NCBI RefSeq assembly: GCF_014250475.1
Contig: NZ_CP060204.1
Location: forward strand, 186,001 to 250,000
Direction of reading: 5' to 3'
Source: Selenomonas timonae
GTDB taxonomy: Bacteria; Bacillota; Negativicutes; Selenomonadales; Selenomonadaceae
Length of the DNA: 64,000 nucleotides
The position numbers were made by a program, and so were the translations under genes. The notes under the pieces are model-generated. The model was not told where the DNA came from. It was given only the letters and a program-made list of their open reading frames with translations, and did no database searches. Below, piece after piece: positions 20,213-36,145 of this stretch (positions within the stretch are counted from its first letter, which is position 1; each line of letters begins with the position of its first letter).

Positions 20213-21670
20213 TCACGGCTGCACCGCCCGTCGATAGAGACGCAGTTTCGTCCGCCCCTCGTGCGGCAGTGCGCCGAGCTCTTCCCAGCCCTGCGCCGCA
20301 AGATTCTCCTCAAACGCATCGAACGCATGACGCTCCACGACGAGATACACCGTCCGATCGCGGGGCAGCTCATCCAGCGGCAGGAAAGGCATGACATTCT
20401 TGCTGTTCCAGCTCATCTCCTTCGGCGCACGCGCCGCAATCTCCTCTCGCGAGGCAAGCTCATACATCGTATGCCCCGTATAGTACGGCACCGTAGCCGT
20501 ATAGTCGCCGTAGCAGACGAGAAGATCATCCGCCCGCATCGTCTGCGCGAGGATTGCCGCCGCCTCCTTCCCACTGAAATGTCCGTCGCCCTCAGAGTAG
20601 TTCGTCACCACGAAGACCACGGCGAGATAGAGCCCCATGCCGAGGATCGCTCCGGCTTTCAGCACGCGCGTATTCTTTGCGAGGAGGCGTGCCGTCAGAA
20701 TCGCCGTTGGCAGGAATGCGGGGAAACTGTACGTCGGGTACTTCGTCGCCATGAACTGAAAGAACACGGGCACGACAATCGCCCAGACAAGGAGAAACAG
20801 CGTGCGCGTGTCAATTACAGGACGCACGCACCACGCACGATAGAGCGCGAGCGGCAGGGCGAAGCTCCACGGAAACATCCCGATAAAGTAGATGCCGAGA
20901 TAGAAGTACCAGACGTCCCACTTTGCATGCTCGGACACCGTTGCACGCAGGACATTGTGAATGCCGAGGAAGGTGTTCACGAAATCCGCCCCGTGTGCGA
21001 AATACATATAGACGTACCACGGCGCGCAGACCGCCGCAAAGACGAGCAAACCGCTGGGGATGCACATACGTCCGAGTGCGGAGAGATCGCGCCGCAGTAA
21101 AAGGAATACGAGGATCACAAGCCCAGGCAGAAGGATGCCGATCGGTCCCTTCGTCAGTACGGCGAGCCCCGCACAGATATACGCGATATAGAAATATTTT
21201 CGCTCCTGCTCATAGTAGCCGACAAAAAACGCCGCAAGTGTCCCGCCAAAGAAAACAAAGAGGCTCATATCCGTGAGGATCAGCTTTGCGAGCACCGAAT
21301 AGAGAACGCCCGTCCCGAGGATGATCGCCGACCAGAACGCCGTCCGCTCATCGTAGAGCCGCCGCGCAAAGGCATAGGTCAAGACGAGCCCCGCCGCAGC
21401 GAAGAGCGCGGGGAAGAAGCGTGCGGCAAAGTCCGTCACGCCGAAGACGGAGAACGCTGCAATCAGCTCCCAATAGAAGAAGATCGGCTTATCGTACCAA
21501 TAGTTCCCGTAGATCTGCGGGGAGAGGTAATCTCCCGCTGCCAACATCTCCTTCGCCGTCTGTGCGTAGTTCACCTCGACAGGTGCCGTCACGGCGAGTG
21601 CCCCGTTGCCCCAGAAATAAAGTACAACAAGGCACAGGATCGCAACGCCGCTCGTCAACCGCTCATTCAT
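20213..21670 (-). CDS. PMT/ArnT-family glycosyltransferase (GT39/GT83), polytopic
   Basis: A 485-residue integral membrane protein with about a dozen hydrophobic segments. The first loop carries PVEVNYAQTAKEMLAAGDYLSPQIYGNYWYDKPIFFYW, split here as the conserved acidic and DKP motifs of the PMT/ArnT superfamily, which transfers a sugar from a lipid-phosphate carrier to lipid A or protein. The gene start overlaps the stop of a DPM1/ArnC-type transferase that would make the lipid-linked donor. Together they could modify lipid A or core, as ArnC/ArnT do, but the sugar is unknown. Confidence 0.8.
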   Translation of the reverse strand: MNERLTSGVAILCLVVLYFWGNGALAVTAPVEVNYAQTAKEMLAAGDYLSPQIYGNYWYDKPIFFYWELIAAFSVFGVTDFAARFFPALFAAAGLVLTYAFARRLYDERTAFWSAIILGTGVLYSVLAKLILTDMSLFVFFGGTLAAFFVGYYEQERKYFYIAYICAGLAVLTKGPIGILLPGLVILVFLLLRRDLSALGRMCIPSGLLVFAAVCAPWYVYMYFAHGADFVNTFLGIHNVLRATVSEHAKWDVWYFYLGIYFIGMFPWSFALPLALYRAWCVRPVIDTRTLFLLVWAIVVPVFFQFMATKYPTYSFPAFLPTAILTARLLAKNTRVLKAGAILGMGLYLAVVFVVTNYSEGDGHFSGKEAAAILAQTMRADDLLVCYGDYTATVPYYTGHTMYELASREEIAARAPKEMSWNSKNVMPFLPLDELPRDRTVYLVVERHAFDAFEENLAAQGWEELGALPHEGRTKLRLYRRAVQP

Positions 21671-22616
21671 TGCCTTCCTCCCTTTGCTCCCCCATACGCC
21701 GATTATCAGACGAAATCAGATAGAGCGGACGATTCTTTACCTCTTGCAGAATGCGCGCAATATACTCGCCGCAGACACCGAGCATCATCATCTGCATGCC
21801 GCCGAAGAAGAGACTGCATACAACGATCGTCGACCAGCCCGCCACTGTCTCGCCACGAAGTGTCTCATAGAGCACATGGAGAAAGAGCAGAACTGCGAGC
21901 AGTGCCGAGCATATGCCCACGTAGAAGGCAGCGCGCAGCGGCTGCACCGAGTAGGCAAGAATGCCATCGAGTGCGAACGAGATCATCTTGTGCAGGGAGA
22001 ACTTTGACTGCCCCGCAAAGCGCTCCGGCGCGACAAACTCCACGCTCGTCTTGCGGAATCCCATCGCACCCACGATTCCGCGAATGAAGCGCGCGTGCTC
22101 GTGATAGCGGCGCAGTGCAAGCACCGCCTTGCGATCCATCAGGCGGAAATCCGACCCCCCCTCCTGAATCTCCACATCGGTCATCGCGTTGAGCAAGCGG
22201 TAGTAGTATTTCGACGTAAGACGCTTAAATATGGATGCGCCCTCCGTCGTCAGACGCACCGTCTGAACAATCTCATAGCCCGCCTCCCACTTCGCAAGGA
22301 GGACGGGCAGGAGCTCCGGCGGGTGCTGCATATCGCCGTCCATCGTGATCACCGCGTCCCCGTCTGCATGATCCGTGCCGCAGGTCAGCGCGACCTGATG
22401 CCCCGCATTGCGCGCGAGGAAGATCGACTGCACATGCGGGTCGCGCTCCCCCATTTCGCGCAGAATCTCGCGGCTGCGGTCACGGGAACCGTCGTCGATA
22501 AAGAGGATCTCGTACGCATAGGGCAGCGTTTCCATCACCTTTTCCACGCTCTGCACAAAGTGCGCAATATTGTCCTCCTCGTTGTAGACCGGAACCACAA
22601 TCGAAACACGCTTCAC
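21663..22616 (-). CDS. GT2 family polyprenyl-phosphate glycosyltransferase (ArnC/DPM1-like)
   Basis: A 317-residue protein with a GT2 domain (VSIVVPVYNEEDNI, FIDDGSRDRS, MDGDMQHPPELLP) and two C-terminal membrane helices, the layout of ArnC/GtrB enzymes that transfer a sugar from a nucleotide onto undecaprenyl phosphate on the cytoplasmic side. The start is ambiguous: two adjacent GTG codons follow AGGGGGTGAA; the second (22614-22616) has the better spacing. A 39-base longer reading would overlap the previous gene. Its product would feed the ArnT-like enzyme encoded next. EGGSDFRLMDRK is typical of the family. Confidence 0.85.
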   Translation of the reverse strand: MKRVSIVVPVYNEEDNIAHFVQSVEKVMETLPYAYEILFIDDGSRDRSREILREMGERDPHVQSIFLARNAGHQVALTCGTDHADGDAVITMDGDMQHPPELLPVLLAKWEAGYEIVQTVRLTTEGASIFKRLTSKYYYRLLNAMTDVEIQEGGSDFRLMDRKAVLALRRYHEHARFIRGIVGAMGFRKTSVEFVAPERFAGQSKFSLHKMISFALDGILAYSVQPLRAAFYVGICSALLAVLLFLHVLYETLRGETVAGWSTIVVCSLFFGGMQMMMLGVCGEYIARILQEVKNRPLYLISSDNRRMGEQREEGNE

Positions 22617-22627
22617 CACTTCACCCC

Positions 22628-23935
22628 CTAGAAATTTCCAATCAGACGTAGCCACCTGTCATGACCGTCTGCAAGCGCTGCAACGCTGAGGAAATCATGC
22701 ATCTTGTACCGCAGCTCCCACTCCCATGCGCCCGTATCCGTCCACTGCTCGTAACGCACGAGCCAGCGCGGATGGAGCGCATAGCTCCCCGCGACAGAGA
22801 GGCGGTCATCGCGCAGATCGTAGCGCAGATCACCCGTGAAATGCGGGAATAGTTCACGCGCATAGCCGACGCGCCAGTCAAAGCGCACATCCTCGGGCGC
22901 GGCATCGGTCTCCGCATAGAGTTCATCGCGCGCACTCAGCATCTGTCCTGCATGCAGGCGCACGTGCAGGTCGCGCCGATCCCAGCCGCGATTCTCCGAG
23001 GTGCGCCCGATATCGAGCCAGCCCGTCAGACGAAGACGATAGCGCATCGTATCCGTGCGGCTCATGACCGCCATGCGCTCCCCCGGCGTGATCGTCACCT
23101 GTGAGGTGAGATGGAGTCGGCGTAGTCCTCCCGCGCCATCCAGACTATCTGCCAGCTGCTGTTCAAACACGGAACAGTGACGCGCAACAAAGGCGACAGG
23201 CACGCCGACAAGGCGATTCGCCGCCGTCTCCATCGCCCTGCGCTGCGTGAGCAGCGTCACGTTCGGTATCGTATCCGAACGCATCGAGAGATCCACGATC
23301 CGCACAACGGGCAGACGTGGATAGACGGTGAGACGCACCTGTGCCGTCTGATCGACATCGATATCGTAGTCCGCGCGGAACTCCGGCAGATGTTCGTCCA
23401 TATAGGCGTTCAAGCTGCGTTTCAGCGCCCCCGTCGCCCAGTCCGTCGCCGCAAGCGGCAGCCCCACAAGAGCATCCGAAAAGACCGTGCTGACACCCGC
23501 AAGGTCTGCGCGCACAATCTCCTCAACGGCGGCTGGCATGCCCTCCACCGCCATCTGTACATGAACACCCTGGATCGTATCCGCCCACGGTGCAAGGTGG
23601 ATTATGACCTCCGTCCGTTGCGCAGGACGCACATCGACCCCAGTTACCGTGTAGCCGACGAGCAGACGGTCAAAGACCGTGCCGATGATCTCCGCCTCCT
23701 CCAACGCAGAGACCGTCGTAATCACGCGCCCCTCCATACGCTCTGCCGCGATTGCCGCAACTGTGCGCTCCATGCGCGCTCGCACAATGGAGGGAATCTC
23801 CCGCTCACCTACAACAATAGCCGCAGTCTCCTCCACGCGGGAGGACTCTGCGGCATATGTGTGGGCAAAACACCCGAAAGCTGCAAAAATGAGGAGGGCG
23901 ATCGCCCAGATGCGCCCAGGCACAAGAGCCTGCAT
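22628..23935 (-). CDS. Exported protein of unknown function, probable outer membrane protein
   Basis: A 435-residue protein with a signal peptide (about residues 1-28). The N-terminal half alternates alpha and beta (VDVRPAQRTEVIIHLAPWADTIQGV), not unlike POTRA-type or secretin-like modules. The last 130 residues are alternating amphipathic strands with many Arg/Tyr/Trp and a terminal Phe (WLRLIGNF), the outer membrane beta-signal pattern. I do not recognise a family. It starts 2 bases after the bamA stop codon with a weak ribosome site, so translation is probably coupled to BamA. A role in envelope assembly is inferred from position only. Confidence 0.6.
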   Translation of the reverse strand: MQALVPGRIWAIALLIFAAFGCFAHTYAAESSRVEETAAIVVGEREIPSIVRARMERTVAAIAAERMEGRVITTVSALEEAEIIGTVFDRLLVGYTVTGVDVRPAQRTEVIIHLAPWADTIQGVHVQMAVEGMPAAVEEIVRADLAGVSTVFSDALVGLPLAATDWATGALKRSLNAYMDEHLPEFRADYDIDVDQTAQVRLTVYPRLPVVRIVDLSMRSDTIPNVTLLTQRRAMETAANRLVGVPVAFVARHCSVFEQQLADSLDGAGGLRRLHLTSQVTITPGERMAVMSRTDTMRYRLRLTGWLDIGRTSENRGWDRRDLHVRLHAGQMLSARDELYAETDAAPEDVRFDWRVGYARELFPHFTGDLRYDLRDDRLSVAGSYALHPRWLVRYEQWTDTGAWEWELRYKMHDFLSVAALADGHDRWLRLIGNF

Positions 23936-23937
23936 TA

Positions 23938-25878
23938 TCAGAACGTGCCGCCGACGCGGAAGTGAACGCGGCCGCCCTGCGAACCACGACCGTAGTCAAG
24001 GCGCAGCGGACCGATCGGCGTGTTGAGCCCGAGCCCGATGCCGATGCTCCCGTACATATTCTCCGGCGTAAAGCCATCGCTCCATGCGCCACCGTAGTCC
24101 GCAAAGAGTGCGCCCGTCACCTTCGACACGATCGGGAAGCGGTATTCAATCGAGGCGAGCGCCATGCGTGTCCCGCGGAACTGATCCTCGCGGTAGCCGC
24201 GGATCGTATCCTGACCGCCCATGCGGAACTGGCTGTACTCCGAGATCGAGCCGCGGCTGATGCCGTACTGCCCGCGCAGAACAAAGACCTGCGAACGCCC
24301 CGCCTTGAGGTAGTGGGTATCCCCTGCAATGTACTTCTGGTAGTTGAAGTCACCACCAAAACCTGCGAACTCTGCCGAGAGAGAGGCACGCGCCCCCATC
24401 GTCGGCTCGTAGACATTATCGCGCGTATCCGTCACGTGCTCGAACGTTACGCTGCGCGTTGTGCCGAAATTGCTGTTAATCCAAGCCGTATTGTTGCTGC
24501 GGTTGCCCGCGTTGCCCGTCTCCGTATGCTTCACATACTTGTCCTGACGGTTGCGGAGCGTGACGAAATTCGTCGAATACTCGCTCATGGGACGGCTGAT
24601 CGTCACCTCACCGCCCGAGTACTTGCGCATGAACGACTCCTTGTGGTTGCCGTCCTCATCGTAGTCATCGTACTCATATGTGCGGTTGTAGATGCGCAGC
24701 GTACCTGCCGTCTCCTTCTTGTCGAGCCATGGACGGCGGTACATGAACGTATAGCCGCGCGCATCCGTATCATCGCCGCTGATCTCATAGGTGATGCTGA
24801 TCGTATCGCCCATCCCGCGGAAATTCGTGTCACTGACGCTCAGCGTCCCAACCATGCCGTCAGCGCTTGAGTAGCCTGCACCGATGCCGAACGAACCCGT
24901 GCGCTTCTCCTTGACATCAATCTCCATGACGACCGCATTCGGCTCAACGCCGGGGTTCATCTTGACATTGACATCCTCGAAGAAGCCAAGGTTGTAGACA
25001 CGCTGCATGCTGCGGCGCGCCTGATTTGCATTGAACGGCTCACCGACCTTCTGACGCATCTCATGCAGGATGACGTATTCCTTCGTCTTTTTGTTGCCCT
25101 TGACCTTATAGCCCTCGAGTGTGCCCTCGCTGATCTTGATCGTGAGCGTGCCGTCCTGCGCGATGTTGAGATCCGTGATCTTTGCAAGAATGTAACCATC
25201 CGCACGGTACTTCTCCTGGATCGCCTGCACATTCTCCTGCAGCGTGCGCGAATTCAGCAGCTCACCGTTCTTGACCGTGATGAGCTCCATCAGAGACTCC
25301 GTGGATTCGACCGTGTTGCCCTCAATCTTCACTTCCTTGAGCTCTGGATTCTCGAGCACATTGTAAGTCAGGACAACGCCCTCGGGTACCTGCTCAAAGG
25401 TCGGATAGAGATCGTAGAAATAGCCCGTTGCGTAGATCGCATCGCGATCCTTCACCAGCCCCTCCTCGGTCACAGCGTCACCCACGTGCATCGTGAGTGC
25501 AGCGCGCGCCGCCCCTTCTGTCGCCTCCGTCGCACCGTTGAACTTGATCTCCATAATCGTCTTGCCCACCTGCGCTGCAAGGTAGTTCGTGATCTCATCC
25601 TCAGCGGGACGCTTTGCCGCCCACGCGGCAGCACGCTCATCCGAGGACGTGGGCGCAGATGTGGTCGTCAGCGCGGGTGCATTCGCAACCGGAGCGTCCG
25701 CAGTGTTGCTTACGGCAGATGGCGCAGCATCGCTCAGCACGGGTGCCTCTGTCACCACAGCGGCACTCTCCTGCGCAGTCCCCTCCTCTGCGGCAAAGCC
25801 ATGTGGCAACGCCGCGGCGGACACGCCGACGCCAAGCGCGACGGCGAGTGTGAGTCTCTGATATCTCTTGCTGTTCAA
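23938..25878 (-). CDS. bamA: Outer membrane assembly factor BamA
   Basis: A 646-residue Omp85 protein: signal peptide (to about residue 29), a low-complexity Ala/Thr/Ser linker (30-95), three POTRA domains (about 105-175, 176-250, 251-330) and a 16-strand barrel. The barrel has the lid-lock motif GYREDQFRG in the sequence TIRGYREDQFRG and ends GGTF with the C-terminal Phe. It folds and inserts beta-barrel proteins into the outer membrane. E. coli BamA has five POTRAs, so this is a short periplasmic arm. Start codon is TTG with AGGAGG 8 bases upstream. Neighbours tamB, skp and tolC support the role. Confidence 0.95.
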   Translation of the reverse strand: MNSKRYQRLTLAVALGVGVSAAALPHGFAAEEGTAQESAAVVTEAPVLSDAAPSAVSNTADAPVANAPALTTTSAPTSSDERAAAWAAKRPAEDEITNYLAAQVGKTIMEIKFNGATEATEGAARAALTMHVGDAVTEEGLVKDRDAIYATGYFYDLYPTFEQVPEGVVLTYNVLENPELKEVKIEGNTVESTESLMELITVKNGELLNSRTLQENVQAIQEKYRADGYILAKITDLNIAQDGTLTIKISEGTLEGYKVKGNKKTKEYVILHEMRQKVGEPFNANQARRSMQRVYNLGFFEDVNVKMNPGVEPNAVVMEIDVKEKRTGSFGIGAGYSSADGMVGTLSVSDTNFRGMGDTISITYEISGDDTDARGYTFMYRRPWLDKKETAGTLRIYNRTYEYDDYDEDGNHKESFMRKYSGGEVTISRPMSEYSTNFVTLRNRQDKYVKHTETGNAGNRSNNTAWINSNFGTTRSVTFEHVTDTRDNVYEPTMGARASLSAEFAGFGGDFNYQKYIAGDTHYLKAGRSQVFVLRGQYGISRGSISEYSQFRMGGQDTIRGYREDQFRGTRMALASIEYRFPIVSKVTGALFADYGGAWSDGFTPENMYGSIGIGLGLNTPIGPLRLDYGRGSQGGRVHFRVGGTF

Positions 25879-25950: not shown

Positions 25951-26493
25951 CTACTCTCGTAAAATTTTTCCGCCGACCTGCATGAGTCGCTGCATATCGG
26001 CATCGGGCATCTGCGGACGCTGCGCGGGCGCTGCGCTCTGCACAGATGCCTGTGCAGTCACGGTCGCAGTGGCGGGCTGTGTCTGCGGCTGCACGCGCTC
26101 CGCATCCGCCGCAGGCATCTCCTTCGACAGTGCCTCTGCGGGCGCTGTCTTCGTTAGCGGCGCTGCATCCTCCACGGCATCCACCGCAGCTACGGGCACA
26201 TCCCGCTCCGTGCGGTGCACGGGCGGCGGCATCGCCATCTCCTCTGCAGGCGGTGTGCCCCACACGAAGTATGCGAGCCCAACTGCCGCAGCAGCCGTCG
26301 GCAGCAACCAAAGGGCAAGGCGTCTCAGACGCGCACGGCGATCCGCTGCAATACGCGCAAGCTCTGCGCGTGCAAGCATGAGTTTCAGGTCGCCCGCAAG
26401 ATCGTCTTCGCCCGCGAGCGCATGCTCTGCGCCCGTAAGCCAGTCCCGTGCCGCACGGATAGATTTCGCGCGCTCTCTGCGGTCTGCGGCCAT
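25951..26493 (-). CDS. Single-span membrane protein, possible anti-sigma factor
   Basis: A 180-residue protein: an Arg/Glu-rich cytoplasmic N-terminus of about 55 residues (two helices, DDLAGDLKLMLARAELARI), one membrane segment (about 60-80, LWLLPTAAAAVGLAYFVW), and an Ala/Pro-rich extracytoplasmic C-terminus ending MQRLMQVGGKILRE. No family recognised. The topology and its position directly downstream of a sigma factor gene are those of a membrane-bound anti-sigma factor. ATG at 26491-26493 has AGGAGG at 6-base spacing. The alternative is an unrelated envelope tether. Confidence 0.45.
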   Translation of the reverse strand: MAADRRERAKSIRAARDWLTGAEHALAGEDDLAGDLKLMLARAELARIAADRRARLRRLALWLLPTAAAAVGLAYFVWGTPPAEEMAMPPPVHRTERDVPVAAVDAVEDAAPLTKTAPAEALSKEMPAADAERVQPQTQPATATVTAQASVQSAAPAQRPQMPDADMQRLMQVGGKILRE

Positions 26494-26580
26494 CACCGTA
26501 CCTCCTTTCGGAATTATACTACACTCTATAGGATGGATTCAAGATGTTAAAATTAAAACGTAGTACTAAGTGCTAAGAAA

Positions 26581-27207
26581 CTACCAATGCTGCATAAAGC
26601 GCGAGAGCATCCCGCGAATGCGACGAATTCCGTTTTTTTGCAGACGGTAGATCTGCGCCGGCGTCACGCCAAGCGACTCCGCCATTGTCTGCGCTCGTGC
26701 GCCACCGATCGTCACACCCTCGAGCACAAGGCGCTCCCGCGCAGGCAGGCGCTCCATCGCAGCGCCGAGCACGCCGACAAGCGCATGATGCTCCGCGAGT
26801 TCCGCAACTGATGGACGCTCGTCGACGAGCAGCTCCTTCGCCGTCTCGTACGCCTCCGTCTCCGCCTCGAGGCACGGCAGATCGACCCGCCCCTCACGGC
26901 GGAGAAAGTCCAGAATGCGCCCGCGCACGCGATGCACAGCGTAGAGGCTGAACGCTACGCCGCGCCTGGGATCATAGCGCTCCACCGCTTCGATCAGACC
27001 AATCGTCCCCTCCTGCACCGCATCCATCACGGCGGGCAGCGCGCGATAGGGCATGACCTCACGGAAGACGAGCGGCTGATACGACTCAATGATCCTCCGC
27101 CGCGCCGCCTCATCGCCGCGCTCCTTATAGGCGCGCCAGAGTTCCCCCTCCTCTGTCAGCGTGAGTTTCTGCACGTCGGCGAGCTTCTTTACATAATCCG
27201 AAAACAC
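26581..27207 (-). CDS. Alternative sigma factor, sigma-70 family (regions 2 and 4)
   Basis: A 208-residue protein. Region 2 spans about residues 40-105 (DAVQEGTIGLIEAVERYDPRRGV, then FSLYAVHRVRGRILDFLRR), including a FliA/SigF-like segment that binds core and the -10 element. Region 4 spans about 150-205 (LPARERLVLEGVTI, an HTH ending VTPAQIYRLQKNGIRRIR). Region 3 is reduced. The GTG at 27205-27207 is 7 bases after AGGAGG and is preferred over one two codons earlier. It lies between tamB and a single-span membrane protein next to bamA, so it may control envelope genes. Housekeeping FliA is a less likely alternative because flagellar genes are not in this operon. Confidence 0.85.
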   Translation of the reverse strand: MFSDYVKKLADVQKLTLTEEGELWRAYKERGDEAARRRIIESYQPLVFREVMPYRALPAVMDAVQEGTIGLIEAVERYDPRRGVAFSLYAVHRVRGRILDFLRREGRVDLPCLEAETEAYETAKELLVDERPSVAELAEHHALVGVLGAAMERLPARERLVLEGVTIGGARAQTMAESLGVTPAQIYRLQKNGIRRIRGMLSRFMQHW

Positions 27208-27244: not shown

Positions 27245-30200
27245 TCAGAACCTGAACCGTGCCTCGACGCTGATGAGCTGATCCGAGCCCTCGCGGTCAT
27301 ACGAGATGCCGAAGCGGTCATTGAAGTCATACTGAATGCCGATCCGATGCGTATCCGACGCAGCGCCGAGCCCCTGCACATAGCGCAGGAGCACGCGGTC
27401 GCCGAAATACTTTCCGATCTCGACATTGTACTCGTTCTCGTTCTGCCGCACCGCCTCGTCATCCTTTGTCTCAAAGAGCGCGCCGCTCCCACTCGAGAGG
27501 CGAAGCACATCGAGATGGAGGAAGTTCTTCACAGAGTCCTCCACCTCCGAGAGAATGCTCATCTGCAGACCGATCGAGAGCACATCCGCCGCTGTAATGT
27601 TTCCCTCGCCGCTCCGATAGGCACTGCGCAGCGTCAGCATGCGGATGATCTCCTCTTCAGACATCTCCGGGCTCGATCCGAGGCGGAAATCCATATGGTC
27701 GAGCGGCCCGTGCGCCGAGAGGAAGACGCGCGTGTGCGTAAGACGTGCCTCCGCATAGAACGCAATCTCCGGCAGGAACGACTCCGGCTGGTTGAACGTG
27801 GCCGTCCCCTCGCGGATCTTGAACACCGTCCGCAGATAGCTCACCGTATCGCCGCGCCGCACGCCAATCATGCCCGTCGTATGCGGGTGACGCGTCGTAC
27901 CGCCGAAATGCACAGAGCCCGACGGATGAATATCATAGAGGTTCGGACTGAAGAAATGCACATAGCGACCCACCGTCAGCCCCACATCGAGGATGATGTG
28001 CGGGAGCTCGTCGTCCGTCTCAGGAATCGACGGGATCGAGACGAGCGCGCGGTTGATGTCAATCGTTCCCGAGAGCTTTGGCAGGGTCTCGCCCCAGTAC
28101 TCGCCCTCATTCAGACGCAGCGTGCCGCTGAGAGGTCCCTCAAAGAACGAGGTCTTGATCTCGAGCGCATTCATCACGAATGTGAAATCATAGGAGCGCA
28201 GCTCCGTACCCGAAAGCTCCGTACGCCCCGTCAGCATATAGGTGCCCGAGCCCATCTTGCCCGTGCACTCACGCACAGAAATGCTCTCGCCGAGCGCATC
28301 AATCCGCAGCTGCATATCCGTCAGCGGATGCTCGAAATAGCGCAGCTTCACCGCGCCGCCCGTCACGCGCAGACTGCCCGTAAGACGAGGGGCGGAAAGC
28401 GTCCCATGCACCTTCAGACTGCCCTCCGTACGTCCGAGCGCCCACTCCACCTGATTGGAAAACACAGGAATGAGCGAGAGATCGGCATTGTCGAGCGCAA
28501 TCGTCAGATCGAGCTGATCGTAGGCATCCAGCGTTTCATCGCGATCCGCTGTGAGCGCACGCAGGGGCAGCGTGCCGTGCGCACTTGCCGTGTAGGCAAT
28601 GCCGTCGATATACTTCGTCACCGTCAGCTCATTCAGGCGGATCACAGAGCCGCGCAGCTGCGCCTCTCCCGCCAGCTCATCGAACGTCGCGCCATTCGTG
28701 CCGCCGTTCTTCGCCGTCAGCTTCAGATCCGCCTCCGGCTGCCGCGTCTGCCCGCCGATATGCGCCGTCAGCGACACCGTACCCGTCACCTCCTGCTCTG
28801 TACCTGCAAAGCGCGTAAACATCCCAAGCGCAATATCCGTCGCCGTAATGTCCACATTTGCCGCGCCGTCAAAATCTGCCGTACCGACAGCAGAGAAGGA
28901 ACCGCTCCCCTGCGCCCCCGAGAACTTACGGAGCGTCAGCACGCGATCCACGAGCGAGACGTCAAGCGCAACATCGCGCACGGGATAGGAGGCAATCGCC
29001 CCCTCTTCGATTGCACCCGTCAGATCGATCGACGGATTGTCCAGCGTACCGCCGAGCTGCACCGCACTCGTGATTGTTCCCGTAATGCGGCTCTCCTGCT
29101 GATTGGCAAGAGCGAGCAGCGCCGTAACATCCATTTTGTCAATATTCATCGTACCGCGCAGGGCGCGCGTCTCGGTATCATAGCGCAGACGCGCGGACAC
29201 AGAGCCCTCCGTCCCCTGACGGAAGCCCGTCCGCTCCATGTCGATGATGCCGTTCTCATAGTGGACAAAGCTGGTAATCTCGCGCAGCTCCACGCCGTTC
29301 ATCGTGATCTCGTCCGCCTTCAGTTTCCCGCGGAAAATAGGATGGGAGATCGTGCCCCCCACCTTGCCGTTGAAGACGCCATGCCCCGAGACCTCGTAGG
29401 GCAGCTTGTGCTCGAATCGCTTCATATCGAGATCGCGCACCTCAGCATCGAAATCAAGCACGCCCTGTGCGCTGATTGTGCCGTTCAGCACCATATCCAC
29501 CATCGGCGAATAGATGTGGAAGACCTGCACGCGGATGATGCCGTTATCGAGGAAGTAGTCGCCGTCCATACCTGAGAGCACCGCGCCCGCATAGCTGCCG
29601 CGATAGAAGTGAACATAGCCGACCGCATGCGGATTGTCAAGCGTGCCCGTGAACTTGATGATATTGTCGATGTTGCCCGTGATCGGCTGATCGGGCGCAA
29701 CAAGCGCCGCCACGTCCTCCATGCGCGCGCCCATCGTATCAATCTGAAGATCGATGCGCCGCTCGCCCGTAAAGCCGATCGTTCCGTTCACGAGCCAGAC
29801 CTCACGTCCGCCACGCTCCATCGAAAAATCATAGATGCCGATGCCCGAGAGCGAGCCATCTGCACGGAAAAGCAGGCTGTCAAACGGCTGATACATGAGA
29901 TCGCCATTCGTCGCGGAGACCTGCATATCGACCTGCGGATCATGAATATCGCCGTGAACCTCGCCCGAGAAATCCGCAAGCCCAGAGAAGCTGAGGCGTT
30001 CGTCGAGATAGTTCAGCAGCGCGAGATCGGCATGCGCGCCGTAGAAGCGCAGATTGAGCGCAGAGCCGCGCATAATATGCCCCTCTACCCCCAGCTCCGT
30101 TTCATTCGGCAGCTTCGCACTGAGGAAATCGATCGTCAGATCGTCCCCGCGCAGCATAAAGGACACATTCGCACGCTCCACGGGAATGTTGCGGTACACG

Positions 30201-31570
30201 CCGTCCGAGAGTGCGGCGCTGCCGAGAACCGTGAGAGCTTCCCCCATCTGCCCGTCGATGCCAAGATCGGCGTGCAGCGTACCGTCCAGCCCCTCGGGCA
30301 GGGACACTGAGAGGGAGCGCAGCCCCGCAAGTGCGACATTGTCGACCGTCAGATGCGCCGTGTAGGTATTTTTCTCCGCAGTAAACACACCTGTGCCCGA
30401 GAGCGTCCCGCCGAACGCCTCCGCCGTCAGATTTTCGAACGAAATTGTGCCGTCAGCATAGGCAGCATCCGCCGCCGCATTTCGGAAGGAGACCCCGTTC
30501 ACCGCCCCTTCCGCCGCCGTCAGTTTCCCCGTGACAATCGGCGCCGCAAGCGTCCCCTTCACGTGAAGATCTGCCGTCACAGCCCCCTGATAGGGGCTGT
30601 CCGCGAGAATGCGGTCAACGGCGAAATCCTGCGCACGCACAGTGAGATCAAGATAAGGTGCATCCGTATCGAGCCGAATCGTCCCGTCCACACGCGCGCG
30701 CTGCTCCGCCGCCTCCACTGTCGCAGCAACGAAAATTGCGCGCTCATTGAAGCGCAGTGCTGAGCTCTCCAGCTGCACCTGCGTCCCGTAAACATCTGCC
30801 GCGCCGCGCATACCGTCGATGCGGCCGTCCAGCGTCAGCACCCCGTCCACGCGATGCAGTTCCATCCGCACGGCATCTGCGTGCAGAGACGAGAGCTGCA
30901 ACTCCTCGGACAGAGAGTTTTCCGGCAGGAGGTGACGCAGCTGCATGAAATCCGTATCTGAGGAACTGAGATAGAGCTCCTGGTTCCCGCCGACATACGC
31001 GCCGCGCACACGCAGAGGTACCCCCGAAAGGGCTCCCGTCGCCTCATAGGAGACATCGCTGCGGTCGATCTCCACTGCCCCCGCAATCTCCGTCAGCTCG
31101 TACGTGCGACTATCTGTCACAATGGTCGCCGAACCGCCCTCCGTGCGGATGCGCCCCTCGAACGTGCTCGGCTGACTGTCGTCCGCGCCGATATCATCAT
31201 AATTCCACGAGCCGTCCGCGCGCTGCACAATGTCCGCATGCGCGCCCGTGAGCAGGATCTCGTCAATCGATGTTTCGGGCGATGAAAGCAAAGAAAGCAG
31301 ACGAAGCGTCACCCGTGCCTCATCGGCACGGAGCACAACCTCCGCCTGCTTATCGTAGATTACGACATCGTCCATTTTCAATTCGTGCAGAGAACGGATC
31401 TCCACCGCACCGATGTGCACAGCCGTTCCCAGCTTCTGCGCCACGAGACGCTCTGCCATCTGTCCCGCCTCAGCCATGAATGCCTGAGCGCGTACGATAT
31501 GGATGAGAACTGCTGCGCAGACGAGGACCGCGGCGATCACCGCCGCCCCGATATACGCCTTCCGTCTCAT
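27245..31570 (-). CDS. tamB: TamB-family (DUF490) inter-membrane protein
   Basis: A 1441-residue protein with an N-terminal signal-anchor (about residues 7-28) and a long series of beta-strands with recurrent GxLxxDNP-type turns, characteristic of TamB/AsmA-like groove proteins that bridge inner and outer membranes. The C-terminal DUF490 domain is clear (HTRVFLSAHGPLDHMDF, then LSIGLQMSILSEVEDSV) and the protein ends SVEARFRF. It would form a hydrophobic conduit for phospholipid, or assist barrel insertion, with BamA as the outer membrane partner because no separate tamA is nearby. The ATG lies 10 bases after the tolC stop codon. Confidence 0.93.
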   Translation of the reverse strand: MRRKAYIGAAVIAAVLVCAAVLIHIVRAQAFMAEAGQMAERLVAQKLGTAVHIGAVEIRSLHELKMDDVVIYDKQAEVVLRADEARVTLRLLSLLSSPETSIDEILLTGAHADIVQRADGSWNYDDIGADDSQPSTFEGRIRTEGGSATIVTDSRTYELTEIAGAVEIDRSDVSYEATGALSGVPLRVRGAYVGGNQELYLSSSDTDFMQLRHLLPENSLSEELQLSSLHADAVRMELHRVDGVLTLDGRIDGMRGAADVYGTQVQLESSALRFNERAIFVAATVEAAEQRARVDGTIRLDTDAPYLDLTVRAQDFAVDRILADSPYQGAVTADLHVKGTLAAPIVTGKLTAAEGAVNGVSFRNAAADAAYADGTISFENLTAEAFGGTLSGTGVFTAEKNTYTAHLTVDNVALAGLRSLSVSLPEGLDGTLHADLGIDGQMGEALTVLGSAALSDGVYRNIPVERANVSFMLRGDDLTIDFLSAKLPNETELGVEGHIMRGSALNLRFYGAHADLALLNYLDERLSFSGLADFSGEVHGDIHDPQVDMQVSATNGDLMYQPFDSLLFRADGSLSGIGIYDFSMERGGREVWLVNGTIGFTGERRIDLQIDTMGARMEDVAALVAPDQPITGNIDNIIKFTGTLDNPHAVGYVHFYRGSYAGAVLSGMDGDYFLDNGIIRVQVFHIYSPMVDMVLNGTISAQGVLDFDAEVRDLDMKRFEHKLPYEVSGHGVFNGKVGGTISHPIFRGKLKADEITMNGVELREITSFVHYENGIIDMERTGFRQGTEGSVSARLRYDTETRALRGTMNIDKMDVTALLALANQQESRITGTITSAVQLGGTLDNPSIDLTGAIEEGAIASYPVRDVALDVSLVDRVLTLRKFSGAQGSGSFSAVGTADFDGAANVDITATDIALGMFTRFAGTEQEVTGTVSLTAHIGGQTRQPEADLKLTAKNGGTNGATFDELAGEAQLRGSVIRLNELTVTKYIDGIAYTASAHGTLPLRALTADRDETLDAYDQLDLTIALDNADLSLIPVFSNQVEWALGRTEGSLKVHGTLSAPRLTGSLRVTGGAVKLRYFEHPLTDMQLRIDALGESISVRECTGKMGSGTYMLTGRTELSGTELRSYDFTFVMNALEIKTSFFEGPLSGTLRLNEGEYWGETLPKLSGTIDINRALVSIPSIPETDDELPHIILDVGLTVGRYVHFFSPNLYDIHPSGSVHFGGTTRHPHTTGMIGVRRGDTVSYLRTVFKIREGTATFNQPESFLPEIAFYAEARLTHTRVFLSAHGPLDHMDFRLGSSPEMSEEEIIRMLTLRSAYRSGEGNITAADVLSIGLQMSILSEVEDSVKNFLHLDVLRLSSGSGALFETKDDEAVRQNENEYNVEIGKYFGDRVLLRYVQGLGAASDTHRIGIQYDFNDRFGISYDREGSDQLISVEARFRF

Positions 31571-31580
31571 AGCAAACCTC

Positions 31581-33116
31581 TTATTTGTTCATCTCTGCCT
31601 CGTATGCGGCATTCGCCGCCTGTACGCGTGCCGCCGCAGCAGCACCGGCATCCGCAGGTGCACGTTCTGCAGTCGGGCGCACCTTGGCATCCTCCGGCGT
31701 TGCAAAGAGCACATCGTCATGCAGCTGTGCCGCCGCACGCGCCTCCTTTGCACGCGCACCGTCCTCCTCCGCCGCACGATACCGCACAGCATCGAGATCA
31801 ACGGGCACGCCCATCGCATTGTCAAGGCTCGCCTTGCCCGTATTGTAACTGTAGAGCGCCGTTGAGTAGTTCATGCGTGCCGTCGTCAGATTGTCTGAGG
31901 CACGCATCACCTCAAGATTCGTCCCCACGCCCGCATTGTAGCGGACGCGTGCGATGTTGTAGTCCTCCTCTGCCTGCTGCACGGCCTTCTCCGTCGTCTT
32001 GATATTCTGCTCCGCCGCACGCAGATTCAGATACGCCGTACGCACATCAAGACGAATCTGCTCATCCGTCGCTGCGAGCGCCTCCTCCGCCTTGCGGAGC
32101 GTCGCCTTTGCCGCATCGACCTGCGCCGCCGTCACACCGTTGTCAAAGATATTCCACGACGCGCTCACACCCGCCGACCACGTATTGCTGCTCGTATGGT
32201 CGTCCTTGAAGGGGTGCTCGCCCGCAATCGAGCGCGTTGCCGCCGCATTCACCGTCGGATGATAGCCCGCCTTTGCCGCGCGCACGCCCTCCTCTGCCTG
32301 CTTTACCGCATAGACCGCCGCCGCACCATCCGCGCGGTAGAGCAGCCCGTAGTCCGTGCAGTCATCCAGAGAGAGCGTATAGCCCGCATAGCGCAGTTCA
32401 TCGTTGATCGTGAGCGTCGTATCCGTCGGCACACCGATCACATTGTTCAGCGTTGCCACAGCGACCTCATAGTTGTTTCGCGCTGTCGTCAGATTCTGCT
32501 GCGCATTCGCCAGCTCCACCTCCGAGGCGAGCACGTCCGCACGCGCCACCGTACCCACACGGAACTGCGCGTTCACATCCGCGAGATGCGCCTGCAGCGT
32601 CGCCACCGTATCCTCACGCACCTTCACCAGATTACGCGCCTGCAGGATATTGAAATAATCCGTCGTCGCCGTCAGGCGGATCGACTGCTTCGTCTGCTCG
32701 AGCGCAAAGTCCGCCGAGTTCAGCCCGTAGCGCGCAGATTTGCGCTGTGCGTTCAGCGACGCGTTATAGACCGGCATCGAGATCGTGCCCGTATTGCCGT
32801 AGTTATAGTCGTAATTTTTGCCCGTCATGCGCGCCTGCGCGTACGCCTCGCCGCCAATGCGGTTCGCCGTCGCCGACCATGTCAGCGTAGGCCCCATCGA
32901 TCGGTTCGCCTGCGCGAGCGCGGCGTGCGCCGCATCCACATCCGTCAGCGCCTGCTTGATCGTACGGTTATTCTCGAGCGCCATCTGCACGCTGCGCGAG
33001 AGATCCACCTGCATTGTCTGTGCCGATGCCGTCCCCGTAAAAAGTCCGACGGCGGCGGTCAGAGCCAGAGTCCGTACCAGTCGCGCCGCAAAACGTCCCC
33101 TATTCTTCAAAGCCAT
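31581..33116 (-). CDS. tolC: TolC-family outer membrane efflux protein
   Basis: A 511-residue protein with a signal peptide (cleavage after about TASA, residue 32) and the duplicated TolC layout. Each half has a beta-hairpin and long coiled helices: ALENNRTIKQALTDVDAAHAAL in the first, FDNGVTAAQVDAAKATLR and RYNAGVGTNLEVMRA in the second. It forms a trimeric channel-tunnel for export systems. The Ala-rich C-terminal tail (about 450-511) is an extension. It is first in the outer membrane cluster, with its own promoter at 33206-33234. Confidence 0.93.
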   Translation of the reverse strand: MALKNRGRFAARLVRTLALTAAVGLFTGTASAQTMQVDLSRSVQMALENNRTIKQALTDVDAAHAALAQANRSMGPTLTWSATANRIGGEAYAQARMTGKNYDYNYGNTGTISMPVYNASLNAQRKSARYGLNSADFALEQTKQSIRLTATTDYFNILQARNLVKVREDTVATLQAHLADVNAQFRVGTVARADVLASEVELANAQQNLTTARNNYEVAVATLNNVIGVPTDTTLTINDELRYAGYTLSLDDCTDYGLLYRADGAAAVYAVKQAEEGVRAAKAGYHPTVNAAATRSIAGEHPFKDDHTSSNTWSAGVSASWNIFDNGVTAAQVDAAKATLRKAEEALAATDEQIRLDVRTAYLNLRAAEQNIKTTEKAVQQAEEDYNIARVRYNAGVGTNLEVMRASDNLTTARMNYSTALYSYNTGKASLDNAMGVPVDLDAVRYRAAEEDGARAKEARAAAQLHDDVLFATPEDAKVRPTAERAPADAGAAAAARVQAANAAYEAEMNK

Positions 33117-33205: not shown

Positions 33206-33234
33206 ATTGTATCAGTTCCCCTGTTTTTTTTCAA
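33206..33234 (-). promoter_or_regulatory. Promoter of the tolC-led outer membrane cluster
   Basis: TTGAAA, 17 bases, TACAAT on the minus strand, about 90 bases before the tolC start. Confidence 0.55.
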
Positions 33235-33302: not shown

Positions 33303-35387
33303 TTACCGCTTCATACCAATCAACGTTTCGAGCATTTCGTCTCCAACCGTGATGGTCTTCGAATTTGCCTGGAATCCACGCTGCGTAACAATCATATCCG
33401 AGAACTGATCGGCAATATCGACATTTGACATTTCGAGCGCCGACGGTGTAATCGTACAGCCAAGATCCGAGGCCGTTTTCACATTCGCTGCACCGGAGTT
33501 ATTCGACTGCTGATAGAAGTTTCCTCCAATGCGTGTGAGACCTGAGGCGTTGTTGAACTGCGCGATTGCAATCTGTGCCTCCGCCTTGATCTTACCATTC
33601 GAATAAACGCCCGTGATGGTTCCTGTATTGTCAATTGTGACGTTCTTCAGAACGCCCTCGGCATTTCCATCTGTCTCCGCCTTAATCGTGCTGCTGCCGC
33701 TGTACTGTGTAAGTGCACCAAGGCTGACCGTGACTTTATGCGACTTCGGCTCCTCCGCCCCCTCACGCTTGTAAGTAAGAGAAACCGTCGCATCGCCGCT
33801 CACATAGCGTCCCGTCTGGTCAAATTTCAAGCGCGTCTTCGTAAGACTTGCACTGACCTCCATCCCATTCGCTTCCTTATAGCTGTACGTATCACTGCCT
33901 GCAAGGCTCATATCCCACTCGTTCGCACCTACCTTGCGGAAGACAAGCGGGATGCTGTGTGCGCCGCCGAGACTGTCGTAGACGGTGAAGGTTGTCACCG
34001 AGGGCGGGTAGTACATCCCGCCGACCTTGTACTCGCCATTGACCGCGCCCGTAAAGACCTGCCCGTCCTTCATGGTGAGAGTAACTTCTGTCGGTTGTTT
34101 TGATTTTCGAGTAACCGATTGAATCGTCCCCTCACTGCCATTAACGCGCCCCTTATAGATATAACGCTGATTCTTCTCCGTAACTGTGAAGGGAGCCCCC
34201 GTCGTTGCTTCATTGGCATCCAGCACCGTACCATCACTATATGTATTGGGCGTATGGATTTTCGCTCCAGCGTCAGCTTCTATTTTTTTCTTCACCAGTG
34301 AAAAGTTCACTGTCTGTCCATCCGCATATGTAAAATCCTTAGGGTTTGGAACAGTGATTTTCACGTTCGTAAACGTTTGTCCGCCAATCGTTGCCGTAGC
34401 AAGCGTCAATTCTGTTGCTCCCGGGTTTGAGCCTGAGGCTTTTACCCCTGCCGATGCTATCGTTCCAGAAATTGTAGATACATCACCGATTGCATGCGTT
34501 CCAGTTGTATGTGTGACAGAAATGGGATTCCCCGAGCTGTCGGTAATCCCATAAACAGAGGATTTATCGCCCTCATAGGTCACTTTGACATTCGCCCCAT
34601 TGGCCTCAACAGAGGTAACTGTCGACGAAAACAGCGCTTTCCCCTTCACAGGTGTGCCCGTGAGTGTAACAGTATCTGTTGTCTTAAATGGATAATCTGC
34701 AACACCATCTTCCAGCGGAATCGGTTTCGTCGTGCCTGTCATGCCAAGAGACATCTCGCCAACCGAACTCTCTGTATATGTTCCGAGAGACTTCTGCGTC
34801 CCGTCCTTATATTTCGCAACAATGCTTGCAATCTCATAGCCTTTCGTATCCGCATTGAGATTATTCAGGTAGCTTGCCGCCGTAGTCATCTGGGGCTGCA
34901 TACTCTTGCCCGCCTTGATGGTGATATTTCCAGGCTGCTCCGTCGTCACCAGTTCGCCGTTCTCTCGTGCCATCCACCCCTGTACAAATGAACCATTGCC
35001 GGGCAAAACATAATTACCCTCTGCATCGAACTCAAATGCACCATCGCGCGTATAATAAGTCCCCGTGCTGTTCTTCATGATGAAGAGACCGTTGCCTGAA
35101 AGCGCAACATCGGTGTTTTTCCCAGTTCCCTGTGCACTCGCATCGGAAAAGATTGTGTCAATGGAGGCAACGTTCATACCAAGACCAATCTGCTTTGGAT
35201 TGATGCCGCCCAGATTGCCGGTAGGTGCAGATGCACCAGAGCTCGTCTGATAAAGCGTATCTGCAAAAGTGACACGACTTGCTTTATAACCAACCGTGTT
35301 GATATTAGAGATGTTGTGTCCAATGACATCCATGCGGGTCTGATGACCTTTTAGCCCAGACACTCCTGAAAACAACGAACGCATCAT
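33303..35387 (-). CDS. flgE: Flagellar hook protein FlgE
   Basis: A 694-residue protein with the conserved flagellar rod/hook N-terminus (SLFSGVSGLKGHQTRMDVIGHNISNINTVGYK, given in part: ISNINTVGYK) and C-terminus (SNVDIADQFSDMIVTQRGFQANSKTI, in part: MIVTQRGFQANS), plus DYNG-like outer domains. FlgE polymerises into the hook joining rod and filament. It is longer than the usual 400-450 residues because of a central insert, about residues 200-480, that is Thr/Gly/Ser-rich. The insert DNA is less GC-rich than its surroundings. GGGAG precedes two ATGs. The gene is followed by a terminator; upstream is a small flagellar operon protein. Confidence 0.95.
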   Translation of the reverse strand: MMRSLFSGVSGLKGHQTRMDVIGHNISNINTVGYKASRVTFADTLYQTSSGASAPTGNLGGINPKQIGLGMNVASIDTIFSDASAQGTGKNTDVALSGNGLFIMKNSTGTYYTRDGAFEFDAEGNYVLPGNGSFVQGWMARENGELVTTEQPGNITIKAGKSMQPQMTTAASYLNNLNADTKGYEIASIVAKYKDGTQKSLGTYTESSVGEMSLGMTGTTKPIPLEDGVADYPFKTTDTVTLTGTPVKGKALFSSTVTSVEANGANVKVTYEGDKSSVYGITDSSGNPISVTHTTGTHAIGDVSTISGTIASAGVKASGSNPGATELTLATATIGGQTFTNVKITVPNPKDFTYADGQTVNFSLVKKKIEADAGAKIHTPNTYSDGTVLDANEATTGAPFTVTEKNQRYIYKGRVNGSEGTIQSVTRKSKQPTEVTLTMKDGQVFTGAVNGEYKVGGMYYPPSVTTFTVYDSLGGAHSIPLVFRKVGANEWDMSLAGSDTYSYKEANGMEVSASLTKTRLKFDQTGRYVSGDATVSLTYKREGAEEPKSHKVTVSLGALTQYSGSSTIKAETDGNAEGVLKNVTIDNTGTITGVYSNGKIKAEAQIAIAQFNNASGLTRIGGNFYQQSNNSGAANVKTASDLGCTITPSALEMSNVDIADQFSDMIVTQRGFQANSKTITVGDEMLETLIGMKR

Positions 35388-35410
35388 AATAAATCTCTCC
35401 CTCAGAAAAC

Positions 35411-35785
35411 CTATAAAATTGCAGCACTATCAATATTGGTAAAGATATTTTCCTTTGCACTTGCCTCGTCGAGCGCGGTGATAACGGTGCGGTTCTTGAC
35501 CGAGACGACCATCGCGAGCCCTCGGCTCAAGTAGACGAGTGCATCACGCACGCCCTTTGCCGCCATGCGGTCGATGGCATCATCAAGGCGCGTCAGGTCG
35601 TCTGCCGTCAGACGAACACCGCGCTGCTCAATGCGCGTCTTTGCGTGTGAGGAAAATCGTGTGCGGCTGCCAGCCGCATCGAGCACCTCTTGGAAAACAT
35701 GGTTGGGTAGAGACGTTCCCTGTCCCCTGCCGACGCGTGCGCTTCCTTGCTCGGCGCCCCCTTGTACAGCAGGATGTATCTCCAT
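35411..35785 (-). CDS. Flagellar operon protein (TIGR02530-type)
   Basis: A 124-residue soluble protein with FSSHAKTRIEQRGVRLTADDL, KGVRDALVYLSRG and the C-terminal VSVKNRTVITALDEAS followed by NIFTNIDSAAIL, matching the small conserved protein commonly encoded between flgD and flgE in Firmicutes flagellar operons. Its role is unknown. The ATG at 35783-35785 with AAAGGTG upstream is preferred; the longer open frame upstream is low-GC, lacks a ribosome site and runs into the promoter region. It is 23 bases from flgE in the same operon. Confidence 0.8.
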   Translation of the reverse strand: MEIHPAVQGGAEQGSARVGRGQGTSLPNHVFQEVLDAAGSRTRFSSHAKTRIEQRGVRLTADDLTRLDDAIDRMAAKGVRDALVYLSRGLAMVVSVKNRTVITALDEASAKENIFTNIDSAAIL

Positions 35786-35950
35786 CATTTCACCTTTCAC
35801 TTTATAACATATTTTATAACACATTTTTACACACACTATATCGTATGTTTTATATCTAAACTTAAATGAATTATAGACAGGTTTTACATCATCACGTCCA
35901 ACATATATTTTGTAGTGCCTCATAGATACACTAATGATGAGGTGATACAT

Positions 35951-36145
35951 ATGAACACAAAACTGATGATAACCAAAAGAAAACGCGGAGAGGACGGGCA
36001 CAAGACCCTGTCCATCCGCGTTCGGGAAGATATTATCAATCGACTTGACGCACTCGCTGACGAGACAGGACGCTCGCGCAACGAACTCATCGGCCTACTC
36101 CTCGACTTCGCCATCGACAACAGCGAGGTGGTTGCTGAAAAATAA
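35951..36145 (+). CDS. Small ribbon-helix-helix (CopG/Arc-type) protein
   Basis: A 64-residue protein with HKTLSIRVREDIINRLDALADETGRSRNELIGLLLDFAI, of which LSIRVREDIINRLDALA shows the strand plus helix of RHH DNA-binding proteins. It could be a repressor or an orphan antitoxin; no toxin gene is adjacent. AGGTG lies 7 bases before the ATG at 35951, so the longer open frame is not used. It is divergent from the flagellar genes across about 165 bases of AT-rich DNA and might regulate them. Confidence 0.75.
   Translation: MNTKLMITKRKRGEDGHKTLSIRVREDIINRLDALADETGRSRNELIGLLLDFAIDNSEVVAEK

Follow-up and report, generated by a model that had tools for sequence, protein, structure and literature searches.

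A sigma factor and a candidate membrane anti-sigma factor between tamB and bamA, kept or lost together, point to an undescribed outer-membrane control circuit

How the building of the outer membrane is regulated in the two-membraned Firmicutes is, to our knowledge, an open question, and a sigma factor gene of Selenomonas timonae that lies among outer-membrane assembly genes asks it directly: does this sigma factor, with the membrane protein encoded beside it, form a regulatory pair for the outer membrane? The locus was analysed in a window of 64,000 nucleotides, which is the whole stretch of DNA considered here. A sigma-70 family factor of 208 amino acids is encoded at 26581..27207 on the minus strand, with a GTG start and an AGGAGG 7 nt before it. 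It is followed by a gene for a protein of 180 amino acids, a putative membrane anti-sigma factor referred to below as the partner (25951..26493, minus strand; ATG start, with an alternative GTG start possible at 26496). The upstream neighbour of the sigma gene is tamB (27245..31570, minus strand) and the downstream neighbour of the partner is bamA (23938..25878, minus strand). Open reading frames and Pfam matches for tamB, bamA and tolC (31581-33116) bore out the preliminary description of this DNA, which had placed the sigma gene within a tolC-tamB-bamA cluster, between tamB and bamA. Just upstream of tolC, the interval 33303-36001 holds flgE and a second gene read as flagellar.

The partner had been described as having a short charged N-terminus inside the cell, a single membrane span and a Pro/Ala-rich outside part, and this topology was recovered. 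The structure model (mean pLDDT 74, pTM 0.36) contained a helix at residues 2-26, a turn, a second helix at 30-78 that runs through the membrane span, an unstructured stretch at 79-163 and a final helix at 164-178. On the minus strand of the window, alignment and model place a cytosolic helical hairpin, the putative sigma-binding domain, at 26347..26487; the model and the charge distribution place the transmembrane segment at approximately 26257..26319. The Pro/Ala-rich outside linker, without regular structure in the model, spans 26002..26256, and the C-terminal helix, with the majority consensus QxLMQxAGKxLR in the alignment, spans 25957..26001. The net charge is +4 ahead of the span and -2 beyond it, the outside part is 34% Pro+Ala, and the inside flank was the more positive one in 30 of 31 partners, the exception being that of locus L046. 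Cysteine was absent from 18 of these 31 proteins. Positions conserved in at least 90% of the 31 partners were concentrated in the hairpin (10 of 38 positions), with one in the N-terminal tip (of 10), one in the C-terminal tail (of 19) and none in the juxtamembrane part, the span or the linker. All eight invariant residues, W17, L18, A21, L35, L39, A40, A42 and E43 (numbered as in alignment A1, one lower than when counted from the ATG start), fall within the hairpin and are therefore located where a sigma-binding domain must be. The C-terminal tail was conserved in the partners of Negativicutes and, on our reading of the loci, unrecognisable in 8 of 10 partners from the ANGP1 phylum.

No Pfam family matched the window partner, and its two NCBIfam matches were both far below the cut-offs (best E 2.3e-4, 20.7 bits against 150). 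When all 31 partners were scanned with Pfam, seven families matched one or two proteins each at E 0.02-0.1. NrsF was the sole anti-sigma family among the seven (2 of 31 partners, best E 0.03), and the scan assigned none of the 31 to a catalogued anti-sigma domain, whether of the zinc type, RseA or others. A Foldseek search with the model gave a best match at E 4.0, and a search of solved structures with the partner profile gave six matches, the best to vinculin (E 0.07). Another, 1ufb (E 0.12), is presumably a HEPN-type protein; no HEPN family appeared in the Pfam scan of the 31 partners, and the solved-structure matches were therefore taken as chance. The partner nevertheless has the general features of a membrane anti-sigma factor: its gene lies beside a sigma gene, its single span is oriented with the N-terminus inside, and its cytosolic domain is conserved.

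The sigma search from the window returned 48 loci, of which 40 (L007-L046) were taken as orthologs and eight were excluded as matching only part of the sigma protein. The orthologs came from Selenomonas, Centipeda, Mitsuokella, Pectinatus, Anaeroglobus, Megasphaera, Colibacter and Veillonella, from metagenome bins and from two ANGP1 bins, a close named relative being Selenomonas sp. FOBRC6 at 99% identity. The tamB gene lay upstream of sigma in 39 of the 40 loci, and the exception, L046, begins 402 bases before sigma. Sigma was followed by the partner and then by bamA in 34 of the 40, an arrangement that is not due to chance. The remaining six belong to Veillonella species, in which tolC-tamB-sigma is followed by a gene read as thrS; all six Veillonella genomes searched had kept both genes unlinked, with the partner elsewhere and directly before bamA. 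The preliminary description had proposed looking for the pair beside bamA in other genomes, and the 19 pair-carrying genomes of a Bacillota sample answered clearly: sigma adjoined tamB in 19/19, the partner adjoined and preceded bamA in 19/19, and sigma adjoined the partner in 18/19, the exception (G150) having about 3 kb with a gene read as HD-GYP in between. The partner also followed sigma in all ten ANGP1-phylum loci examined.

Co-occurrence was measured with separate profiles, the partner profile being run blind to position over the same 299 Bacillota genomes as the sigma profile. Sigma orthologs scored at least 212 bits and all other proteins at most 108, and the same 19 genomes carried both genes while 280 carried neither. 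A sample of 200 Negativicutes genomes, which shares 10 genomes with the phylum sample, contained 162 with both, 37 with neither and one with the partner alone; this last genome (G330) is 74% complete, and by script comparison the two positive lists were otherwise identical. The co-conservation across Negativicutes that had been suggested as a check was thus found. In the ANGP1 phylum 34 of 43 genomes carried both (one partner, in G535, counting only at E 0.0016), eight carried neither, and one (G508) carried a truncated sigma match alone. The pair had been introduced as a Negativicute feature, which is correct for that class and too narrow overall, as further families of Bacillota and the ANGP1 phylum have it too.

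The outer membrane does not require the pair, since Omp85 was found in 76 of the 299 Bacillota genomes, including all 19 carriers, and 57 of the 76 lacked it. By profile, neither sigma nor partner lay beside bamA in ten examined loci of such pair-less genomes, eight of which had a recognisable tamB. Among the Negativicutes with neither gene are one genome of genus g2, alongside nine with the pair, two of g220, alongside one with it, the two sampled from g5, and genera in families f135 and f145 that have pair-carrying relatives. Such genomes lie inside pair-carrying genera and families, so that joint loss of sigma and partner has probably happened more than once. Both tamB and bamA were retained in two pair-less loci examined (L112 and L225), and in G272 they lie about 40 nt apart at the site where the pair would be expected.

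The co-occurrence and the cytosolic conservation, both read from sequence, strongly support the partner as a candidate membrane anti-sigma factor, and we consider it likely that sigma and partner are a cognate pair whose dedicated task is outer-membrane biogenesis, the partner acting as the anti-sigma factor. The partner could instead be an inner-membrane-anchored accessory factor of the BAM machinery, found beside sigma only because both belong to one outer-membrane gene cluster. Its fixed position before bamA, which persists even in the Veillonella genomes where sigma is elsewhere, and the conserved outside tail in Negativicutes agree with such a role. An accessory factor would not be expected to vanish with sigma, as the partner does in three samples with one incomplete genome as the exception, while tamB and bamA persist in the two pair-less loci, nor to have its best conserved part in the cytosol. 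We therefore regard the accessory role as unlikely: the joint absence, the retention of both genes when unlinked and the conserved cytosolic hairpin fit an anti-sigma factor better. Several points weigh against the sigma/anti-sigma reading itself: neighbours in one old cluster could stay together without interacting, no catalogued anti-sigma family in Pfam or NCBIfam fits the partner, its best Foldseek match is poor, most Omp85-bearing genomes of the Bacillota sample lack the pair, the tail is mostly unrecognisable in the ANGP1-phylum partners, and the genus of the window shows no sign of autoregulation.

The preliminary description had called the sigma a two-region factor, and both regions were present. 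The window protein matched Sigma70_r2 at E 1.2e-16 and Sigma70_r4 at E 4.6e-4 (20.1 bits, below the cut-off of 24.1) in Pfam, which identifies it as a member of the sigma-70 superfamily; the ortholog at L034 matched Sigma70_r4 over the cut-off (E 1.8e-8). The top NCBIfam match was to the sigma70-ECF superfamily (E 1.6e-25, over its cut-off). Region 3 was not found by Pfam in the window protein, in L034 or in L045, the positive control being FliA of the same genome (L004), which matched Sigma70_r3 at 1.2e-8. A region 1.2-like start was added to the described architecture: Pfam r1_2 matched it in L034 only (E 4.9e-4, below the cut-off), and the structure model (mean pLDDT 86, pTM 0.52) and alignment A2 give a layout of region 1.2-like start, region 2, short linker and region 4.

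The sigma had further been called FliA-like. By profile, the nearest solved proteins were 6pfv (E 1.9e-31, titled as a WhiG complex) and the FliA structure 6pmi (E 9.2e-28). In a tree of 47 rows, 24 sigma orthologs formed one group (92/89), which adjoined FliA of the same genome (92/82, on a long branch and with few rows). 'FliA-like' is thus half right, with a tentative kinship to the group 3 sigmas: region 3 was not found, the window sigma scored 68.5 bits against the NCBIfam FliA_WhiG cut-off of 189.6, and L004 scored 248.3 bits. FlgM is likewise encoded elsewhere in the genome (25.8 bits, cut-off 25). The partner, unlike FlgM, has a membrane span; FlgM was not among the families matched by the 31 partners, and the profile comparison gave a probability of 0.3%. 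With true FliA and FlgM as separate genes, the sigma and partner are not a FliA/FlgM pair, and this identity was rejected. The factor resembles the ECF (group 4) sigmas in having no detected region 3, a sigma70-ECF superfamily score over the cut-off and an adjacent gene for a membrane protein, but differs from ECF sigmas with membrane anti-sigma factors in its region 1.2-like start and in the absence of a known anti-sigma family from its partner. Among the other sigmas of the genome, L005 scored over the NCBIfam SigH cut-off. Two tandem RpoD genes (L001 and L002, at G000:C1 766624 and 767788) both scored over the RpoD cut-off, and a further small sigma-like protein (L006, G000:C1 489466) had a weak helix-turn-helix match (HTH_16) and no NCBIfam assignment.

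An alternative is that the proteins are a true sigma/anti-sigma pair with a regulon other than outer-membrane assembly, for example flagella, a surface layer or general stress, and that the cluster position is merely inherited. In its favour are the grouping with FliA in the tree, the profile nearness to WhiG and FliA, and the placement of flgE immediately upstream of tolC, seen in the window and in 4 of 9 other regions from the genus. The flagellar gene was beside tolC in none of seven other Negativicute regions examined (L131-L134, L139-L141), FliA and FlgM have their own genes, and the adjacency of tamB to sigma and of the partner to bamA holds in two phyla, all of which make a different regulon improbable. 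It is very improbable that the sigma is a degenerate or scaffold protein with no working transcription role and the partner its co-factor, as the sub-cut-off region 4 of the window protein might imply, given that many region 2 residues are invariant among 32 orthologs (alignment A2), that the model is confident across regions 2 and 4 and that region 4 exceeds the cut-off in L034.

The intergenic regions of the locus were searched for promoter-like elements. A promoter-like TTGAAT-N18-TATAAT precedes the partner gene (26513..26542, minus strand) and was aligned in 11 of 11 Selenomonas and Centipeda sequences, the window included. A second, TTGAAA-N17-TACAAT, precedes tolC (33206..33234, minus strand) in an alignment of ten sequences, its second box reading TACAAT in seven and TAAAAT in three. 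Both look sigma-A-like. The partner gene in the genus of the window lacks a GATTATA core, and the wider core pattern [CGT]GA[TC]T[AG]TA does not occur in the sigma-partner gap of the window. There is thus no sign of autoregulation in this genus, and such a reading is not supported.

Other families have a different conserved block of 25 nt in the sigma-partner gap, with the consensus AATCTGGCCTCTTCCCAKGAYTATA. This element, which resembles a promoter and stands ahead of the partner gene (L212-L224, and gaps in L172-L207), was clear in 17 of 55 gaps. Allowing three mismatches, the consensus was found in 13 of 18 genomes, a count that is not a frequency, since 17 of the 18 had been picked for carrying the element in the gap. 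Each of the 13, which span nine family codes, had one copy, by its coordinates always between sigma and partner, with no second copy at this stringency, and the reversed pattern used as a control gave one match. The core [CGT]GA[TC]T[AG]TA, a pattern settled on when part of the data had already been seen, was present in 17 of the 36 other gaps counted, where 300 shuffles gave a mean of 1.4 and a maximum of 5. For this count 40 gaps had been taken (six in which none was read, three set at a fixed 200 nt with the end of sigma not found, and one too short), and two near-duplicates were removed beforehand. In the six Veillonella genomes whose partner and bamA are apart from sigma, the core also lies upstream of the partner, 29 nt from its start. 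It was rejected as a marker of a wider regulon, as five 15-kb cluster regions held 19 matches, five of them the partner site, against 17.7 expected from base composition; the claim is accordingly limited to the partner site. At that site we see a candidate promoter from which sigma would transcribe the partner-bamA unit; alternatively, some other regulator may bind there. Among the remaining matches to the core, two are intergenic, near the end of L226 and of L229 and downstream of a gene read as fabZ; a third is in L225, from a pair-less genome.

The RpoE/RseA envelope stress system is a two-gene pair with a membrane anti-sigma factor in an outer-membrane context. The present pair had been proposed as its counterpart, which is tenable as an analogy in these same three respects and does not extend to family membership: RseA matched none of the 31 partners scanned, and the window sigma differs from RpoE in its region 1.2-like start and its grouping with FliA.

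The tamB/bamA/ompH locus is the same as that described for the diderm gene clusters of Negativicutes and Halanaerobiales, and the portions available of these descriptions do not mention a sigma/partner pair (PMC5007114, PMC5491611). The available text of the 2016 cluster paper reports hypothetical proteins and tamB/bamA/skp synteny without the pair, and no word starting with 'sigma' was counted in it (PMC5007114). The accessible part of another paper gives the gene order mlaEFD-tolC-tamB and has 'sigma' only as the name of a supplier (PMC10665443). TamB and BamA of Veillonella parvula carry the consecutive locus tags Vpar_0526 and Vpar_0527 in the excerpt available (PMC5491611), so that the pair does not lie between the two genes there, and V. 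parvula seems to be without it at this locus. The sigma/anti-sigma candidate at the BAM locus is real and conserved, and the open-licence literature searched, as far as its texts were available, yielded no prior description of it. That it is kept or lost together across many diderm relatives of the Firmicutes points to an undescribed outer-membrane control circuit.

The partner has bamA as its constant neighbour and a long, flexible outside part whose tail is conserved in Negativicutes, which suggests that the signal it senses is the state of outer-membrane assembly. We infer a circuit in which, at rest, the helical hairpin of the partner would bind sigma, tethering it at the inner membrane and so inhibiting it, while the flexible linker and C-terminal tail would probe the periplasm, probably for the state of the BAM/TAM machinery. 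A failure of assembly would change the state of the tail, the partner would be cleaved or would release sigma, and the freed sigma would direct RNA polymerase to a regulon of envelope genes. For many Negativicutes, the partner-bamA unit would itself be a candidate for such control. More tentatively, the pair could be an ancient outer-membrane surveillance switch of the diderm Terrabacteria, one that arose independently to do the work of sigmaE/RseA and was lost several times, apparently also in Veillonella parvula. It would combine a region-3-less sigma of the FliA lineage with a new family of membrane anti-sigma factors (a hairpin sigma-binding domain, a long disordered reach and a BAM-sensing tail) and have its own promoter type feeding back on bamA; taken as a whole, we hold this possible but rather less than probable. 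A regulator that two phyla have kept between tamB and bamA would suggest an old diderm toolkit that included outer-membrane quality control, and the pair would help to trace how this control was later lost or rewired in several lineages.

Further features of the cluster were noted around bamA. The window BamA has an Ala/Thr-rich N-terminal stretch ahead of its POTRA domains, and the bamA open frame in G174 has 839 codons. Directly after bamA, 22628-23935 encodes a protein of 435 amino acids without a Pfam match over the cut-off, relatives of which occur in 31 of the 40 sigma-ortholog loci. Between this gene and ompH, two genes at 20213-22655 were read, from the open reading frames alone, as ArnC-/ArnT-like glycosyltransferases of lipid A modification.
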